Positions 3,113 through 50,577 of a stretch of DNA of 50,577 bases are shown here, in pieces. The notes beneath the pieces were generated by a model. The model ran no database searches. It was not told the DNA's origin and was given only the letters and a program-made list of their open reading frames with translations. A program made the translations under genes and the position numbers. The stretch comes from a virus, in IMG/VR virus record IMGVR_UViG_3300043409_000744, positions 1 through 50,577 of that record, one strand, 5' to 3'. Positions within the stretch are counted from its first letter, which is position 1; each line of letters opens with the position of its first letter.

Positions 3113-4018
3113 TTAAGAAGCGCCTTGCGAACCCCACGCGGCGCGGAAGTTCGAAACACCGAAGGAGTAACGCTCAATGGCCTTGGCCTTGAGGTTGTCG
3201 GTGTCGAAATCCGTGTACACGTCGGTTTCGAGGGCTTCACGTTCGTAGTACTTCAGGCCGTTCGGCGCGTCCGACAGCAGGAACCACGAGTTCGTATCCG
3301 TGAGGAACATGTTCACGCGATAGCCCTGCGGAACCGCAGAGTTGTTGTAGATCGCGTTGATGTCATTGTTCGCCGTAGAGGTACGGAACTGAGATTCCAG
3401 CAGGCGGGTGGCCGTCCACTGCAGTTCAGCGGGAACGATCAGCTTGGTCGGCTTCGTCATGATGCGAAGGCCGGCGGCGTCACGGTAACGCTGAGTGCCA
3501 ACGATGGCGTCCTGAAGCGACGTTTCGTTAAGGTCAGCTTGCACCGTGAAGGTGTTCGCAACCGTACCGTTGTCGATCGGGTGAGCCGTCGAGAAGAACG
3601 GCTGGCCATCGCCGATGGGGAAGTTGGACGAGAAGCCATTGTTCATGACCGAAGCGCCGAGGACTTCCTTGGTCTGAGCCATCGACTGCCGCAGAGCCTT
3701 GGCCTGCAGCGGGAACGAGGACTGGTACAGGTTATCCTTGATCGCCTGACGAGTGATGATGAAGCCGATCGAGGTGTAGCGGTTCACGTAGTTCGTGACG
3801 AACCGCTGGCCCATGTCTTGGTAGGCCGTTGATGCACCTTCAGCCTTGATCTGAGCCAGACCAAGCAGCTTCACTTCCACTTCGATTTCGACCGCCTTAT
3901 CGGAGGTGTGCTTTTCGAAGATTTCCGACCATTGCCCAGGATACTGAGGATAGTCGCCGAAAACCGCAGCCAGCCCCGGACGGAGCAAGTCGCGGATAGA
4001 GGTTGTATTAATCGCCAT
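3113..4018 (-). CDS. Major capsid protein
   Basis: 301 residues, a usual size for a compact HK97-fold coat protein. It begins MAINTTSIRDLLRPGLAAVF and carries GDYPQYPGQWSEIFE, a long helical stretch (DNLYQSSFPLQAKALRQSM) and FFSTAHPIDNGTVANTF. The last phrase recalls the conserved STxHP...G....N region of Mu-like major head proteins. Expected to form the icosahedral shell. A strong AGGGAG ribosome-binding site lies upstream, and the scaffold-like gene is two genes earlier in transcription order. No separate protease is visible nearby. Confidence 0.85.
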   Translation of the reverse strand: MAINTTSIRDLLRPGLAAVFGDYPQYPGQWSEIFEKHTSDKAVEIEVEVKLLGLAQIKAEGASTAYQDMGQRFVTNYVNRYTSIGFIITRQAIKDNLYQSSFPLQAKALRQSMAQTKEVLGASVMNNGFSSNFPIGDGQPFFSTAHPIDNGTVANTFTVQADLNETSLQDAIVGTQRYRDAAGLRIMTKPTKLIVPAELQWTATRLLESQFRTSTANNDINAIYNNSAVPQGYRVNMFLTDTNSWFLLSDAPNGLKYYEREALETDVYTDFDTDNLKAKAIERYSFGVSNFRAAWGSQGAS

Positions 4019-18881: not shown

Positions 18882-19910
18882 ATGACCGCCTATTACAACG
18901 AGATCGACCCGTATGCTGCGGCGTGGCTGCGGAACCTGATCGCTGCGGGGCGCATTGCCGCCGGCGATGTGGATGAACGATCAATCAGGGACGTGCAGCC
19001 GGATGACATCAAGACGTACACGCAGTGCCACTTCTTTGCAGGGATCGGGGTCTGGTCTGCCGCTCTTCGACTGGCTGGATGGGCGGACGACCGACCCGTC
19101 TGGACAGGCAGCTGCCCCTGCCAGCCCTTCAGTGCTGCCGGTAAGGGAGGCGGGTTCGATGACGAGCGACACCTCTGGCCCGATCTCTTCCGTCTCATTG
19201 CGGAGTGCAAACCTGGCGTTGTCTTTGGCGAACAGGTTGCGAGCAAGGACGGCCTCGCTTGGCTCGACCTTGTACAAGCTGACTTGGAAGGAGCGGACTA
19301 CGCCAGCGCAGCGGTCGATCTCTGCGCTGCGGGCGTCGGGGCGCCGCATATCCGACAGCGATTGTATTGGGTGGCCGACGCCGCACACCAGCAGCAGCAC
19401 GGGAGCCGGGACGCAGGGTCGAGCGGGCGGGATGAACATTCAGACGGCGTCGCAGCTATCGGGCTGGCCGACGCCAGTGGTGAACGACGCGACGGGCAGC
19501 AAGTATTCCTACAGTCGGGGGGACCACGACAGGCCGGTGCTGAAGCTACCAGGGACAGCCGACCTAGCAGGCTGGCCGACGCCGACGACGCGAGACTATC
19601 GGTTCGCGAATGCCCTGCCGTGGAGCGAGCGGGGTGGCGGGACGAAGGGCGAGCAGCTGAACAACCAAGCGGTGCATATGCTGGCGGCGAATCCGCAGCC
19701 CGCCCGACTAACGGCGTCTGGCGAGATGCTGACTGGATCTTCTGCAGGGATGGCAAGTGGAGGCCAGTTGAACCCGGCACATTCCCGTTGGTTGATGGGG
19801 CTGTCTCAAGGGTGGGACGACTGCGCGCCTATGGCAATGCGATTGTCCCGCAAGTTGCGGCCGAAGTGATCGCCGCATGGATGGATTTTTCATTGGAAGG
19901 GAAAGACTAA
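18882..19910 (+). CDS. dcm: C5-cytosine DNA methyltransferase
   Basis: 342 residues. Motif I CHFFAGIGVWSAAL (about residues 49-62), motif IV GSCPCQPFS (76-84) with catalytic Cys80, a motif VI variant VVFGEQV (about 113-119), motif VIII HIRQRLYWVAD, and a C-terminal motif X-like RLRAYGNAIVPQVAAEVI. The target-recognition region is compact. It methylates cytosine using S-adenosylmethionine, probably protecting phage DNA from host restriction. Unusually, residues 30-325 are overlapped by a long open +1 frame whose product also looks like a real protein. The stop overlaps the tas-like start (TAATG). Confidence 0.9.
   Translation: MTAYYNEIDPYAAAWLRNLIAAGRIAAGDVDERSIRDVQPDDIKTYTQCHFFAGIGVWSAALRLAGWADDRPVWTGSCPCQPFSAAGKGGGFDDERHLWPDLFRLIAECKPGVVFGEQVASKDGLAWLDLVQADLEGADYASAAVDLCAAGVGAPHIRQRLYWVADAAHQQQHGSRDAGSSGRDEHSDGVAAIGLADASGERRDGQQVFLQSGGPRQAGAEATRDSRPSRLADADDARLSVRECPAVERAGWRDEGRAAEQPSGAYAGGESAARPTNGVWRDADWIFCRDGKWRPVEPGTFPLVDGAVSRVGRLRAYGNAIVPQVAAEVIAAWMDFSLEGKD
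18967..19869 (+). CDS. Overlapping-frame protein inside the methyltransferase gene (WPTP-repeat type)
   Basis: 300 residues in the +1 frame of the methyltransferase gene. LANRLRARTASLGSTLYKLT, WKERTTPAQRSISALRASG, repeated GWPTP (four copies) and GGQLNPAHSRWLMGLSQGWD are patterns I remember from proteins deposited beside or as phage cytosine methyltransferases. Both frames of this DNA therefore resemble recurrent proteins. It may be translated by internal initiation or be a fixed consequence of the methyltransferase sequence. No strong ribosome-binding site is seen at 18967. Confidence 0.45.
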   Translation: MWMNDQSGTCSRMTSRRTRSATSLQGSGSGLPLFDWLDGRTTDPSGQAAAPASPSVLPVREAGSMTSDTSGPISSVSLRSANLALSLANRLRARTASLGSTLYKLTWKERTTPAQRSISALRASGRRISDSDCIGWPTPHTSSSTGAGTQGRAGGMNIQTASQLSGWPTPVVNDATGSKYSYSRGDHDRPVLKLPGTADLAGWPTPTTRDYRFANALPWSERGGGTKGEQLNNQAVHMLAANPQPARLTASGEMLTGSSAGMASGGQLNPAHSRWLMGLSQGWDDCAPMAMRLSRKLRPK

Positions 19911-20746
19911 TGACAATGATGGACGAAGACACCCCTAGCATTGGCGTAATCCAGGAGGGGATACGAAAGCTTACGAAGGACGAGAAGTTCGCCGGGATTG
20001 TACTCGGCAAGGACGAGGCCAGGTTTCTGGTCGATGCCTACTACCAGCTGCAGGACAATCGGATCCGCAACGACGGGCAGGTCCGATCGATGGCCAAGGA
20101 TGGCGAGCCTCATGCTGTTGTCCAGTGGTTGGCCGACATGAACCGGACGCTCGAGGACCAGATCAAGGCGGCGCTGGATGTCTACAGTGCCAATGATCCG
20201 GTAGGTAAGTGGCTGCGGGCACAGGTCGGTATCGGTCCTGTCATCGCGGCGGGTTTGTTGGCCCACCTCGACATCACCAAGGCCGAGACGGCGGGTGCGT
20301 TCTGGAGCTTCGCTGGACTCGAGCCTACCAAGGTCTGGAACAAGGGTGAGAAGCGGCCGTGGAATGCAGCCCTCAAGGTGCTGTGTTGGAAGGCGGGTGA
20401 ATCATTCGTCAAGGTCTCTGGCAACGAGAACGCAACCTACGGCAAGTTCTATAAGGCTCGTAAGCTGCAGGAGATCGAGAAGAACGAGCGCGGAGACTTC
20501 GCGGCGCAGGCGGCGGACATCCTGACCAAGAAGAAGATTGGCAAGGATACGGATGCCTACAAGGCATACATCCAAGGCAAGCTGCCGCCGGCCCACATCC
20601 ATGCGAGGGCGACTCGGTATGCGGCCAAGCTGCTGCTGGCCCACCTCCATGAGGTTATGTACGTCCAGCACCACGGGCGCCAGCCGCCTTTGCCTTACGC
20701 GATTGGAATCTTAGGCCACGCGCATAAGATCAGCCCGGTGGTCTGA
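19910..20746 (+). CDS. Tas-like (Nop/IS110-C-terminal-like) RNA-guide-binding protein
   Basis: 278 residues from the ATG at 19910 (GGAAGGGAAA ribosome-binding site, TAATG overlap with the methyltransferase). Residues 20-105 are helical and probably dimerising. Residues 107-121 GIGPVIAAGLLAHLD and the later SFAGLEPTK, KRPWNAALKVLCWKAGESF form the helix-hairpin-helix core shared by the C-terminal half of IS110 transposases and by Nop-domain proteins. The N-terminal DEDD RuvC-like domain of a transposase is absent, and no HNH or RuvC is fused. Its stop codon is the first three bases of the repeat array at 20744. This combination matches TIGR-associated (Tas) proteins, nuclease-less TasA type. 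Expected to bind 36-nt guides and DNA. Confidence 0.78.
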   Translation: MTMMDEDTPSIGVIQEGIRKLTKDEKFAGIVLGKDEARFLVDAYYQLQDNRIRNDGQVRSMAKDGEPHAVVQWLADMNRTLEDQIKAALDVYSANDPVGKWLRAQVGIGPVIAAGLLAHLDITKAETAGAFWSFAGLEPTKVWNKGEKRPWNAALKVLCWKAGESFVKVSGNENATYGKFYKARKLQEIEKNERGDFAAQAADILTKKKIGKDTDAYKAYIQGKLPPAHIHARATRYAAKLLLAHLHEVMYVQHHGRQPPLPYAIGILGHAHKISPVV

Positions 20747-21415
20747 CGAGCCATCTCGCCCGACAGAACCAATCGCCATGAGCGAGCCATTTCGTGAGAC
20801 AGAACCAAAACTCGAGAGCGAGCCATCAAGAGCGATAGAACCATATTGGCCGAGCGAGCCAAGGCGAATGACAGAACCAAAAGAATGGAGCGAGCCATTG
20901 ATCGCGACAGAACCATTTATGACGAGCGAGCCAACTCTTCGGACAGAACCAGAAGTGTTGAGCGAGCCACGCAGGGTAACAGAACCACCTCCCCGGAGCG
21001 AGCCATCGAGAGCGACAGAACCATGTATGCCGAGCGAGCCATCACCCGTGACAGAACCACATTCGCGGAGCGAGCCATCGTCCACGACAGAACCAAGTAC
21101 TCTGAGCGAGCCAAAGTTGTTGATAGAACCATCCCCTGAGAGCGAGCCAGGACTCACGACAGAACCATTTTCCCTGAGCGAGCCAGACAGTGCGACAGAA
21201 CCATTTTCCAAGAGCGAGCCATCACGAGCGACAGAACCATATAGAAGGAGCGAGCCAAAGATCGAGACGGAACCAGCAATCCTGAGCGAGCCATTGATGA
21301 CGACAGAACCATATGTGCCGAGCGAGCCATTCTACTCGACAGAACCAGGATGCATGAGCGAGTCAGGAATCCCGACAGAACCAACACGCGCGAGCGCGCC
21401 AACGGGGGCAGACCA
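20744..21415 (+). repeat. TIGR-type tandem interspaced guide array (37 repeats, 36 spacers)
   Basis: Two 10-nt repeats alternate: A, GAGCGAGCCA (19 copies) and B, GACAGAACCA (18 copies), sharing 7 of 10 bases. Every repeat is followed by a variable 8-nt spacer, giving an exact 18-nt half-unit and 36-nt unit from 20744 to 21401 with no indel. The first A copy (TGACGAGCCA) is degenerate and includes the tas-like stop codon. The last A copies (GAGCGAGTCA, GAGCGCGCCA) and a shortened B (21407-21415) mark a decaying end. 36-nt units with two short spacers are the published format of tigRNAs. All frames are partly open because the period is a multiple of three. It does not fit CRISPR dimensions. 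Confidence 0.85.
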
Positions 21416-21501
21416 ATGATCCCCGCCCCAAGAACAAGGAGTTGGTACGCCCGCGCCGCCCCTTGCTTCCCATTAAGCGGGCATTTCGGAGCTAGAACCC
21501 G

Positions 21502-43575: not shown

Positions 43576-45101
43576 CAGGACTGGTACCTTCCATCGCCGC
43601 GAGAGATGTGGCCCAGAACCTGACCCATCTGATAGTCGCCTCCCACGGTGTTGCTGTCGAACCGGAAGCGCATCTCGCGCCTCTGCTCCTTGAAGTACAC
43701 CACCTGTTCGTAGGACTCGTTGGCCACAGCCGGGAAGGTCTTGACGGGGCCGGCAACCTCGGGCGATCGAGCGTTGATGCGACCCGTGACTCTGACCTGC
43801 ATGTCCCCAGATTGAACGAAGTCAGGCTCAATCAGTTCAATGCGCAGCGCTGTATCGCTAGGCTGCGGAGAGAGCAGCGCCGTGATGTCACTGGTTTCAA
43901 AGTAGCTATGGACCGCGTTGAGGCTCTGGCCATCGATCTCATCGACGCCGCTCTCATGACGCCACAGTTTGTAAGCACCCCCAAACCCAGAAGGTTCCAC
44001 CCCAGTCAGGAGCGGAGAGTGGAAAACTTGGGCATAGACGCCGGCTGACCGACCACCATTCGGAAGCTCCGTGTCGTACCAGGTTTTTTCCCGCACATTG
44101 TAAATGATGGCGTGGGTGCATTCCGTGGCGTTTCCACGCGGGTAGCACCACCAGATCTCGCCGTAGCGCGGAACCTTGTAGGCAAAGATCTTGTTGGCAT
44201 ACTCGGTGTTAAGGCCATCAAAGAAATAATTGATGTTCATATTGTTATCCACTTCCTGGACAACGCCGCTGTACATCAGGAAGCGATCAATGCCGATCCA
44301 GAAGAAGATGCCGTCGTACTCGATGATGCCATTTACAGCGAGGATTGAGGACGAGGCCGTGATGGTGTCGAAGGAAAACACATCGGCGGCGCCTGTGTAG
44401 GTCGCACGGATCAGACGATCTAGCGTCCAGATCAAACCCGCCGGAGACTGACCACCACCTCGCAGCGGCAGTATCTTCACCACCTTGGACGAATCGATAA
44501 ACGCATTACCCGCATCTCCGGTGGAGAAGTTGGTAGGGTCGTTTGCGTCAGACCACTGCACATAGCCGTTCGTGCCGTACACGAACAGGTACGGATGTAG
44601 GGCGCAGACGCCACCAGATACCAAGATTCCCGTGATGTCGGTCAGCGCCGTGGTGTCGTAGTAGTCGCCAATGTAGACCTGCTGATCGACATTGTTGGAG
44701 ATATCCATGCTGGTGTTGGTAGCCACCGCAACCAGAGAAGACGCGGCACCGGCACCGTCGTAGATAGCGTCGAACTGCCAAGTGAAATCGTCACCCCCGG
44801 TGTAGCCAACCGGCGTTCTATCAACCGGCGCGCTGGTGTTTCCCAGGGTATCAACCGTCAACTGTTCCAGCCCAGCCCCGTACCCGAGATGGGTATAGGT
44901 AAAATTGTTCTGAGCCTGCGTACTCATCTGGCGAACGATGCCGCCGACAAAATTATTGATCTGGCGATAGCCGCCGATCTTACGCGGTAATCCGCGCTGC
45001 CAGCGCACCCACTGACCATCAACATAGGCATCGCCTTCAAAGCGGGTTCCGTCCCGCTTGATGCCTGGCTGCGACCTGATCTGGATGATGTCTGTGGGCA
45101 T
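43575..45101 (-). CDS. Tail nozzle / hub-like protein
   Basis: 508 residues from the ATG at 45101 (TAATG overlap); the longer ORF is rejected. IQIRSQPGIKRDGTRFEGDA and YVDGQWVRWQRGLPRKIGGY open a beta-propeller-like body with many blade-like strands (LHPYLFVYGTNGYVQWSDAN, EIWWCYPRGNATECTHAIIY). This matches the P22 gp10-like packaged-DNA stabilising/nozzle family of short-tailed phages, which closes the tail below the adaptor ring. Assigned by pattern. Confidence 0.65.
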   Translation of the reverse strand: MPTDIIQIRSQPGIKRDGTRFEGDAYVDGQWVRWQRGLPRKIGGYRQINNFVGGIVRQMSTQAQNNFTYTHLGYGAGLEQLTVDTLGNTSAPVDRTPVGYTGGDDFTWQFDAIYDGAGAASSLVAVATNTSMDISNNVDQQVYIGDYYDTTALTDITGILVSGGVCALHPYLFVYGTNGYVQWSDANDPTNFSTGDAGNAFIDSSKVVKILPLRGGGQSPAGLIWTLDRLIRATYTGAADVFSFDTITASSSILAVNGIIEYDGIFFWIGIDRFLMYSGVVQEVDNNMNINYFFDGLNTEYANKIFAYKVPRYGEIWWCYPRGNATECTHAIIYNVREKTWYDTELPNGGRSAGVYAQVFHSPLLTGVEPSGFGGAYKLWRHESGVDEIDGQSLNAVHSYFETSDITALLSPQPSDTALRIELIEPDFVQSGDMQVRVTGRINARSPEVAGPVKTFPAVANESYEQVVYFKEQRREMRFRFDSNTVGGDYQMGQVLGHISRGDGRYQS

Positions 45102-46978
45102 TAGACGAATGGGGTGACAGAGGCGAGGACGGTAAAGGTGGCAGCTCCGGTTTTGATGACGGTGTAGGTGTAGACGTTGATGCTGGAGACGGTGCCCGAA
45201 GAAGGCACTGAACTCTGCCACTTCGTCGTGACGCCGACCGTTGTGCCGTCCACCTGCACGGCACTGTTGTAGTACGCGGTAGCCCCTTGTGTAACGAGGA
45301 AGGCCGCCGTGATACTTTCACCCGTCGCCATCGCCGTGTTGAGTGTCGTGCCCGATGAGGCGCGCAGGTTTGTCGTCCAGTTCCCAGAGGCATCGGACGT
45401 GTAGTAGAGGACGCTCTGCGTTGTGATGTCGTAATTGATGGTGCCCGTCGCAGCCGTGGCACTGATCGTGGCTGTCTCCAGGGCGTTGACGAGCTTTGCC
45501 GCCAAGACGCTGGTCGAGCCGGTGAACGTCTGCTTGCCCGTCCACGGGCTGGCTGCCGTGTAGTCAAGCGCAATCGTGCCGGTGGAGGTGATCGTACCAC
45601 CCGTCAGGCCGGTGCCCGCCGTAATGCTGGTTACGGTGCCGCCAGTGGCAGGAGCCGATGACACCCACGCGGAGCCGGTAGACGTAAGTACGTTACCGAC
45701 TGTGCCAGATGAAGTCAGGCCCGTTCCCCCTTGGGCAGCGGACAGCGGCGTCGTAAGACCACTCAAGGAAGTGATGTCGCTATTGGCACCGTCAGCGGCA
45801 CCACCAATAGCCGTTCGCGCCGCCGCCGCACTCGCCGCCGTAAAGACTGCGATGCCCACGGATGTTCCGCCCAAATTAACACGAGCACCTGATGCAGTCG
45901 TAGACCCGGTGCCCCCTTGGTTAATGGCAACCGGAATCGATATGGTGGACGTGTCGGCATCCACGACGTTCGTGCCATCGCAGAACATAATGGCGCGGGA
46001 CGCATTAGCGAGCGTGACGCCAGTCCCGGCCGCCGTCTTGATTGTGATGGTGTAGGGCGCAGAAGCTAGATCGGTATCATTTCCCACCCAGTATTGTTGG
46101 ATGGTGCCGGGGACGATGATGTCCATATCGCCAGTGATGGTGCCACCGAAACTGTACGAGATTCGGTTCAGGTTCGCCCCAGCAAGGGTGTACGGGCTTG
46201 TCTCGCTGGTCAGGTCGATTGACACATAGTCGAAGGCGAAAGCCACCGATTGACCGAAGCCAATGCTGAAGAAGTTAGTGCCGTCGCACAGGATGGTTGC
46301 GCTGTCCCCTGGGTTAAAAGACAGGGAACCACCGCCGTTGATCAGCTGTCCTCCAACCGCAGGCACAACGCTAACGGCGCCGCTGCCGCTGTTGCGGATG
46401 TTCACGAACCAATCGTTGCCCAGAGTGGACGATGAGGTCAGCGTCAACGTGCCAGCGCCGCCAGTCCAGATGATCGCCGTGGATCGATCAGGATCATTCA
46501 AGACATAGTTGCTGCTGATGGAGACGGCTTCCATCGATTGATTCAGCGTGGTGTTGATCGCCTTGATTCCGTACCCAGCAAGAGATCCAGCGGTCGCGGA
46601 CGACGTTCCAGCGCCATACTGCGTGACACGCCAAGTGCCATTAACGGTCGTGTTATCGATCAGGTAGACTTGGTACGACAAGCCCGACGCCACCGTCGTG
46701 ATGGTGTTGCCGCCGTTATCGGCGATCGTGAACGTATAAGACCCGGCGTTAAAGAAAAGCTGGGTCTGTCCAACACTGACCTGATCGGCCGGCGGCATCG
46801 TGATCGTAAGGCTGGCAGCCGAAGGCGTGACATCCATGATCTCGGCGACGACGTTGGTGTCAGTGGCTAGTTCGGTGGGCCAAGCGAACGTGACATTGGC
46901 CGTAAGTGCAACGGCTCGATAGCTAACCGAAGCCGGATAGATAACCGTGCCACCAAAGGTGTTAGTGAATGAGGGCAT
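45101..46978 (-). CDS. Tail fibre / appendage protein
   Basis: 625 residues, very rich in Gly, Thr, Ser and Ala. IPVAINQGGTGSTTASGARV, AAARTAIGGAADGAN and AAQGGTGLTSSGTVG are typical fibre-shaft repeats (GGTGxTTxxxAR). The N-terminal half has beta-rich modules and may attach to the tail. The C-terminal 120 residues would be the receptor-binding tip. No chaperone or depolymerase motif seen. Confidence 0.8.
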   Translation of the reverse strand: MPSFTNTFGGTVIYPASVSYRAVALTANVTFAWPTELATDTNVVAEIMDVTPSAASLTITMPPADQVSVGQTQLFFNAGSYTFTIADNGGNTITTVASGLSYQVYLIDNTTVNGTWRVTQYGAGTSSATAGSLAGYGIKAINTTLNQSMEAVSISSNYVLNDPDRSTAIIWTGGAGTLTLTSSSTLGNDWFVNIRNSGSGAVSVVPAVGGQLINGGGSLSFNPGDSATILCDGTNFFSIGFGQSVAFAFDYVSIDLTSETSPYTLAGANLNRISYSFGGTITGDMDIIVPGTIQQYWVGNDTDLASAPYTITIKTAAGTGVTLANASRAIMFCDGTNVVDADTSTISIPVAINQGGTGSTTASGARVNLGGTSVGIAVFTAASAAAARTAIGGAADGANSDITSLSGLTTPLSAAQGGTGLTSSGTVGNVLTSTGSAWVSSAPATGGTVTSITAGTGLTGGTITSTGTIALDYTAASPWTGKQTFTGSTSVLAAKLVNALETATISATAATGTINYDITTQSVLYYTSDASGNWTTNLRASSGTTLNTAMATGESITAAFLVTQGATAYYNSAVQVDGTTVGVTTKWQSSVPSSGTVSSINVYTYTVIKTGAATFTVLASVTPFV

Positions 46979-49785: not shown

Positions 49786-49947
49786 TTACCGCATGCCGCT
49801 GCGCAGGGTCGCACCCAGAAGCGCCGTGACAGCCAGTTGCGCTGCCTGCATGGCAGTAGCGTCGCCCGTGGCATAACTTGCGCCTGCGCCGAGGACCGAC
49901 ATGGCCGCCACGACGTAGGTCTTCTTACCGCGTAGGATACCAAACAT
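49786..49947 (-). CDS. Holin-like small membrane protein
   Basis: 53 residues from the ATG at 49947 (AAGGAGAC upstream). A basic start, MFGILRGKKTYVVAAMSVLG, runs into a first transmembrane segment, and QAAQLAVTALLGATLRSGMR forms a second short hydrophobic stretch. Proteins of the MFxxLxGKKTYxVA type are frequent in phages and are sometimes proposed as holins. No endolysin gene is recognisable nearby or elsewhere. Confidence 0.6.
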   Translation of the reverse strand: MFGILRGKKTYVVAAMSVLGAGASYATGDATAMQAAQLAVTALLGATLRSGMR

Positions 49948-49957
49948 AGTCGTCTCC

Positions 49958-50527
49958 TTATTGAGGAATAGGACCACCCACCGGATAGGTTACGCCGACA
50001 GGGGCTTGGGTTACAACCTTCGTACCGGCGGGCACTGGGCCTCCGGCGACGTTCTCATGCACAGGGCCATAGCACTTGGCGAGGCGGACACCGTTTACAC
50101 GCTTCGGCTCTAGGGTGCAGGCGAAACTGAACATGTTGCTCAGGCCGTTGCCGGGGCTGGTGACAAACGTGCGGATGACGGCCTTGTCATTGCGTGACCA
50201 GTTAGGGGCCTGCGGGAATTTATCCCGGTACTGGTAGAGGCTCCAGACTTGGTTAGGGCCGGGTTGATCGCAGGAGCCCGTCATGTTGCCACCGGCCACA
50301 TCGGCAATGGCTGGGCCACGCAGGACAGGACAGACCGCAACCGCTTCAGCATACCTAGCCGTGCCGCCGCCCTCGACGTTCACGGTGATCATCTTGCCCG
50401 TCAGCGTAGCCGGTGAGGCGGCGCAGAGCGCGAAGTCCTGATGGCAGATTTGGTAGCTGCTGGCGTGGGCCGGAGCCGGGGCCGCCGCGCAGACCGCGAG
50501 AGCGGCGAGGATGGAGATACGGTTCAT
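49958..50527 (-). CDS. Secreted Cys-containing protein
   Basis: 189 residues. MNRISILAALAVCAAAPAPA ending AHA-SS is a good Sec signal peptide with cleavage near residue 22. The mature part has six Cys residues, including CHQDFALC and a C near GSCDQPGPN, and GPVHENVAGGPVPAGTK at the end. No enzyme or lysis family recognised. It could act in the periplasm or on the cell surface, for example in superinfection exclusion; this is inference. Confidence 0.65.
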   Translation of the reverse strand: MNRISILAALAVCAAAPAPAHASSYQICHQDFALCAASPATLTGKMITVNVEGGGTARYAEAVAVCPVLRGPAIADVAGGNMTGSCDQPGPNQVWSLYQYRDKFPQAPNWSRNDKAVIRTFVTSPGNGLSNMFSFACTLEPKRVNGVRLAKCYGPVHENVAGGPVPAGTKVVTQAPVGVTYPVGGPIPQ

Positions 50528-50577
50528 GCTGTTTTACCTGCCTGTAGTTCTGCCAGCGTTAGACCGTTTGTCCATTG
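50524..50577 (-). CDS. Small phage protein, 3' part (enters from window edge)
   Basis: In frame from the last base of the window: QWTNGLTLAELQAGKTA and a TGA that overlaps the ATG of the signal-peptide gene. The LTLAELQAG ending is the usual continuation of small proteins such as that at complement(1..83). Together they would give about 45 residues if one base is missing at the seam. Confidence 0.65.
   Translation of the reverse strand, partial: QWTNGLTLAELQAGKTA

Follow-up and report, generated by a model that had tools for sequence, protein, structure and literature searches.

A 50,577-base virus record from IMG/VR (IMGVR_UViG_3300043409_000744), analysed here over its whole length and called the window below, carries a gene for a Tas protein directly followed by an array of short alternating repeats and spacers. 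The locus is likely a TIGR-TasA system (tandem interspaced guide RNA, with a nuclease-free TIGR-associated protein) of a tailed phage, in which RNA from tas and the array would yield guide RNAs (tigRNAs) for the occlusion of DNA, and in which the array is renewed by duplication, loss and divergence of its units. Sequence and predicted fold support a real and typical member of the known TIGR-Tas kind; this assignment is made because the testable sequence and fold features were found, the 3' terminator excepted. Among TIGR effectors, TasA is the most frequent and also the most poorly understood. The 2025 paper on these systems left the expansion of TIGR arrays unexplained, its authors calling it an enigma (PMC12045711), and no later paper on the subject was found in the literature searched; the window locus and its relatives now offer a concrete, testable answer to how arrays emerge and expand.

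The Tas protein

In a Pfam search with the 278-residue product, the only domain matched was Transposase_20 (the IS110 C-terminal domain), below threshold at 20.3 bits against a cut-off of 21.3. Searching the PDB with the single sequence returned TasR (9mty, 1.5e-9) and TasH (2.1e-9); with a profile of 65 sequences the values became 2.1e-21 and 6.6e-15, and the next match was IS621 at 5.4e-5. An AlphaFold model built from a 65-sequence alignment has a mean predicted local distance difference test score of 88.1 and consists entirely of helices, including a long helical hairpin (residues 34-63/69-94) as expected for a Nop coiled coil; its N-terminus, where a nuclease would sit, is disordered. When the model was submitted to Foldseek, all 11 matches at E<0.001 were to TasH or TasR (top probability 1.00), and the next 11 (ranks 12-22) were to IS621 and ISCro4. 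Profile and fold together thus give the protein the Nop/IS110-RNA-binding-domain-like domain of Tas proteins. Neither the Pfam scan nor the model contains an HNH or RuvC domain, as in the TasA subtype. There is also no DEDD catalytic domain in the 278 residues, the recombinases being aligned over the C-terminal part alone. No Cas-family match was obtained for tas or for eight early-region genes tested.

A preliminary description of the locus had proposed a TIGR-Tas system whose nuclease-less, TasA-like protein has an IS110-C-terminal or Nop-like core. The profile and fold matches to TasR and TasH, the real if sub-threshold Pfam match and the 36-nucleotide (nt) dual-repeat array bear this out, and the structure search that it suggested placed TasH and TasR first and IS110 recombinases after them.

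Compared with its nearest relative (locus L002, Tas 94% identical), the gene has a synonymous divergence (dS) of 0.68, a nonsynonymous divergence (dN) of 0.043 and a dN/dS of 0.063; by this measure tas is under purifying selection. In PHROGs, the product belongs to family 4285 'transposase' (1.9e-55). The family phrog_4285, labelled 'transposase, integration and excision', matches the window Tas over its full length, and the label may mislead for such members, which suggests that some of its 'transposase' entries are Tas proteins.

The array

Each unit of the array consists of an edge repeat GAGCGAGCCA, a spacer, a loop repeat GACAGAACCA and a second spacer, and is exactly 36 nt long; the two spacers are called A and B. 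Edges and loops alternate in an exact 18-nt register, with all repeats 10 nt and all spacers 8 nt. The 28-nt pattern edge-N8-loop, with up to three mismatches allowed, matches 18 times in the window and not once across 100 dinucleotide-preserving shuffles. TIGR arrays are defined by two alternating repeats of 8-12 nt beside tas, with spacers mostly of 9 nt and up to 12, and the window has such a dual-repeat array. Its first edge (TGACGAGCCA at 20744) is 5'-truncated, a trait reported for first edges by Faure 2025 (PMC12045711), and one edge within the array is the variant GAGCGAGTCA. The single 25-36-nt repeat, long spacers and cas genes of a CRISPR locus are not seen here, the repeats being two and of 10 nt. 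The protein, repeat, spacer and unit lengths had been read correctly in the preliminary description; the locus had been drawn as far as 21415, and the array does run to 21401, but the remaining bases are not array-like.

Both repeats share the box motif GA...CCA, and in relatives the two change together (GTG..CCA with GTG..CCA; CCG with CCG). Among 15 distinct edges, positions 3 and 8 covary as GC, AU, UA or GU and positions 4 and 7 as CG, UA or AU, with one exception, while loop positions 4 and 7 are mostly A-A. Edge identity was assigned partly by pairing and is therefore biased toward covariation, yet the assignment agrees with the first and last repeats of the window array. Judged from these alignments, edge repeats covary like a short stem, and do so at both of the pairs that should close the tigRNA. 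The array RNA shows no more intrinsic structure than chance would give (z-score -0.24). A TIGR array is expected to finish in a truncated edge and a rho-independent terminator; in the window the last edge is degenerate, and directly past it, at 21400-21455, lies a hairpin that is GC-rich but lacks a T run.

Relatives and distribution

A search with the repeat pattern found 11 viral stretches, including the known L002 and L003 records, and one metagenome-assembled genome. A profile-based scan gave 395 viral relatives, 80 of which were retrieved. A periodic array of 34-38 nt scoring above threshold lies near tas in 77 of these 80, as against one of 36 unrelated viral loci; as a positive control, the scoring recovered the known SpTIGR array with its edge AAGCGAGCCA. 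Among 369 Gammaproteobacteria, Tas was present in one metagenome-assembled genome, the same one that the repeat pattern had found, and none was found in plasmids.

In L126, L106, L107 and L101 several separate arrays surround a single tas, and some loci exceed 40 units. In Microcystis phage Mvi-JY20 (PP438412.1; L166, about 3660-3990), a Tas homologue annotated as 'hypothetical protein' is accompanied by a 36-nt dual-repeat array that bears no annotation and by a hairpin resembling a terminator, making this phage a possible experimental model. Gene 42 of Gordonia phage Morrissey (L165) is a distant Tas homologue (22.5% identity) with no obvious dual-repeat array; stem-loop arrays were not looked for.

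Guide turnover and array growth

Close relatives with 75-95% identical Tas carry different guides. Repeats and Tas are conserved from the window to L002, but no guide pair is common to both; a single spacer A (AAGATCGA) recurs. The two records share other stretches closely (window 49787-50577 at 95% and 44964-45657 at 85% DNA identity; L028), whereas their guide arrays are unrelated.

The origin of new units was approached through sister units, that is, unit pairs in one array with similar spacers. The analysis covered 88 non-redundant arrays with 914 units, and the null was obtained by shuffling B spacers within arrays; this is stricter than the between-array expectation behind an earlier estimate and lowers the excess. 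Seventeen pairs differ at no more than four of the 16 spacer bases, where 6.0 are expected (0 of 300 shuffles reach 17), and 11 have a sequence distance of three or less against about 1.8 expected. Sister pairs at distance 4-5 are largely due to chance. The loop sequence is the same in 13 of the 17 pairs (4.2 expected; 0 of 2000 permutations), and six of the 17 are adjacent (2.35 expected). In L011 a collinear block is copied, units 7 and 9 corresponding to 13 and 14 with the rare loops GAAAGAAACA and GACTGAAACA retained. Comparison of related arrays (L080/L081/L084, L108/L115 and L071/L082) finds some units exactly kept and interior ones replaced. The window itself has one sister pair, units 3 and 8, with loops one base apart; since there is only one pair and its loops are unequal, the window alone is weak evidence, and the case rests on the family.

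Shared rare loop variants in sister units, together with internal gains and losses, point to growth by duplication of units followed by divergence of their spacers. As read from these sequences, the pattern implies that TIGR arrays grow by copying and diverging, with internal turnover, unlike the end-polarised acquisition of CRISPR, and that guides are replaced fast, in part through copying of units and drift of the copy. Such sister units and internal changes are new relative to the 2025 paper (PMC12045711). Counted across all arrays, spacer A starts with T in 40% of units, and spacer B starts with A or T in 66%.

Proposed mechanism

TasA, TasR and TasH bind 36-nt tigRNAs cut within the edge repeats, and in TasR and TasH the two spacers pair with opposite DNA strands (PMC12045711). 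If the tested TIGR systems are a guide, the transcript of tas and array would be cut in the edge repeats to give 36-nt tigRNAs, one of which would be clasped by a TasA dimer. On a 16-bp target, spacer A would then pair with one strand and spacer B with the other; the 8-nt 3' overhang together with the C-5 rule leads to the deduction that one target strand would read A and then the reverse complement of B. The TasA-tigRNA complex would open and sharply bend this DNA, and might block transcription or replication where such sites occur in a rival phage, a plasmid or the host. Because TasA has no nuclease, such occlusion is the most likely outcome, and by analogy the phage probably uses TasA to hold on to selected DNA sites while leaving them uncut. 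The array family would renew its repertoire by duplicating units, losing some internally and letting spacers diverge.

Several points weigh against this scheme. RNA processing, dimer formation and DNA binding are carried over to this locus by homology, blocking as an outcome is an analogy, and no cellular function of TasA has been demonstrated in the literature found. No canonical terminator follows the array on the + strand. Self targets in the window do not exceed chance at up to two mismatches and gaps of 0-2, and in sister phage records and around further tas loci matches were no more frequent than expected by chance or obtained with B-shuffled guides. In IMG/VR, exact 16-mer scans with two L002 and two window sister guides returned 13, 7, 7 and 9 stretches, which are spread across genes of unrelated kinds at chance level.

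Sister guides can also be read as coding sites: in L002, ATACCGCTGCAAAAGG and ATTCCGCTCCAAAAAG both give IPLQK, in L003 CHTGK occurs twice, and in the window the pair gives SRAAN/SRAAY. It is conceivable, but rather unlikely, that the guides of a sister pair stand for synonymous versions of protein-coding target sites, forming a self-copying library that tracks synonymous drift in rivals' genes; if true, this would be an adaptive repertoire without any adaptation genes. The idea is attractive for L002 and L003. In a synonymous-change test of sister guides, A and then the reverse complement of B, with no gap, ranks first or near first among the geometries, with p of about 0.05-0.17 depending on the set and no significance over all arrays, and at these values we do not claim that geometry from sister guides. 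One of the L002 hits in IMG/VR, obtained with guide ATACCGCTGCAAAAGG, is an exact match to motif I (FCSGIG) in the C5 methyltransferase of another virus (L132), a single hit that the sister guide does not reproduce.

Alternative explanations

The guides might act on the phage's own genome, regulating genes or aiding integration, and not on rivals. A solo TasA without a nuclease would make self-targeting tolerable, and Faure 2025 proposed an integrase-aid role (PMC12045711). We nevertheless hold this to be improbable, given that self matches are at chance and that no integrase was seen near tas among the genes tested.

A further possibility is RNA-guided DNA methylation, with TasA recruiting the C5 methyltransferase translationally coupled to it, much as Nop5 recruits fibrillarin in box C/D particles (PMC12045711). 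The stop/start overlap of the methyltransferase gene with tas would fit, but the two genes abut in the window only (one of 81 loci, three others having the methyltransferase 2-5 kb off), and L002 has an unrelated 84-residue gene at the corresponding position (L047). The overlap is thus peculiar to the window and is not used as evidence of function. We give methylation very little credence, and the inter-phage conflict or host takeover that the preliminary description had read into this neighbour is not supported, on the same count.

The array could in principle encode a protein repeat of 12-residue SEPxxxTEPxxx units instead of guides, as a stop-free + strand frame of 213 residues spans 20778-21419 where 5.3 stops are expected. 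That frame is not conserved: in the arrays of L002 and L003, the nearest relatives, every forward frame is interrupted by stops, and of 52 arrays just 8 keep any forward frame open. Conservation of the repeats is moreover at the DNA level, with covarying pairs, and relatives whose tas is 94% identical have unrelated spacers, so that a coding array is hardly credible. A degenerate IS110-type transposase remnant beside an unrelated repeat, as the PHROG 4285 label and the borderline Transposase_20 match might suggest, is contradicted already by the missing DEDD domain, the dN/dS of 0.063, the linked array in 77 of 80 relatives and the ranking of TasH and TasR above IS621 and ISCro4 by fold.

Genomic context

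The window looks like a tailed phage: in our own reading of its open reading frames, made with no family search, structural genes including terminase and portal lie on the reverse strand. The tas gene and array (Table 1) sit among early genes on the forward strand at about 15-31 kb, which include the C5 methyltransferase, a protein that matches Toprim below threshold, a DEAD-type helicase, a YqaJ exonuclease and RecT. Apart from tas and its reverse-strand shadow frames, no neighbour family is present in more than 16 of the 81 loci.

Table 1. Positions of the TIGR-TasA locus and its neighbour in the window
Feature	Positions	Strand	Remarks
C5 cytosine DNA methyltransferase, neighbour	18882..19910	+	Pfam DNA_methylase 1.8e-13; stop/start overlap with tas (TAATG)
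tasA, solo Nop-domain (IS110 C-terminal-like) Tas protein	19910..20746	+	278 residues, without nuclease domain
TIGR array, 18 units	20744..21401	+	19 edge GAGCGAGCCA and 18 loop GACAGAACCA repeats; repeat-pattern match
First edge repeat TGACGAGCCA, 5'-truncated, degenerate	20744..20753	+	overlaps tas stop codon (TGA CGAGCCA)
Unit 3, TCAAGAGC / TATTGGCC	20816..20851	+	possible sister guide of unit 8
Unit 8, TCGAGAGC / TGTATGCC	20996..21031	+	possible sister guide of unit 3
Last edge repeat GAGCGCGCCA, degenerate, closes array	21392..21401	+	sequence

Comparison with known systems

Among the closest known systems is the experimentally tested SpTIGR, the TIGR-TasH system of Salicola phage CGphi29 (PDB 21kl, 9w04, 9vzx). 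It shares with the window a period of 36 nt, spacers of 8 nt (making 16 nt for each pair; PMC12045711), a phage location, a Nop-domain core and a nearly identical edge (AAGCGAGCCA against GAGCGAGCCA). SpTasH differs in its N-terminal HNH nuclease, with about 27% protein identity over the core, and the SpTIGR array ends in a clear terminator, whereas no canonical one was found for the window array. FpTasA of Flavonifractor plautii (Faure et al. 2025), compared by its description, is likewise a solo Nop domain with a dual-repeat array, but FpTIGR spacers are 9 nt and those of the window 8 nt. TaTasR (9mty) is the best profile match and a significant fold match; TasR differs by a RuvC nuclease at its N-terminus, absent from the window protein, and by box D motifs with UG, where the corresponding bases of the window are GA. 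The IS110/IS621 recombinases have a related C-terminal RNA-binding domain (profile 5.4e-5, Foldseek 8.5e-3), together with a DEDD domain and a single-guide bridge RNA, in place of which the window has a guide array. The Tas of Mvi-JY20 (PP438412, XAI95461) resembles the window protein in its solo size and in a 36-nt array just downstream, with 25% identity and repeats of the ATGCGAGCC and ACGAAACCC type. With close relatives that carry different guides, and with related loci in named phages such as Salicola CGphi29 and Microcystis Mvi-JY20, the function of the system is directly testable.
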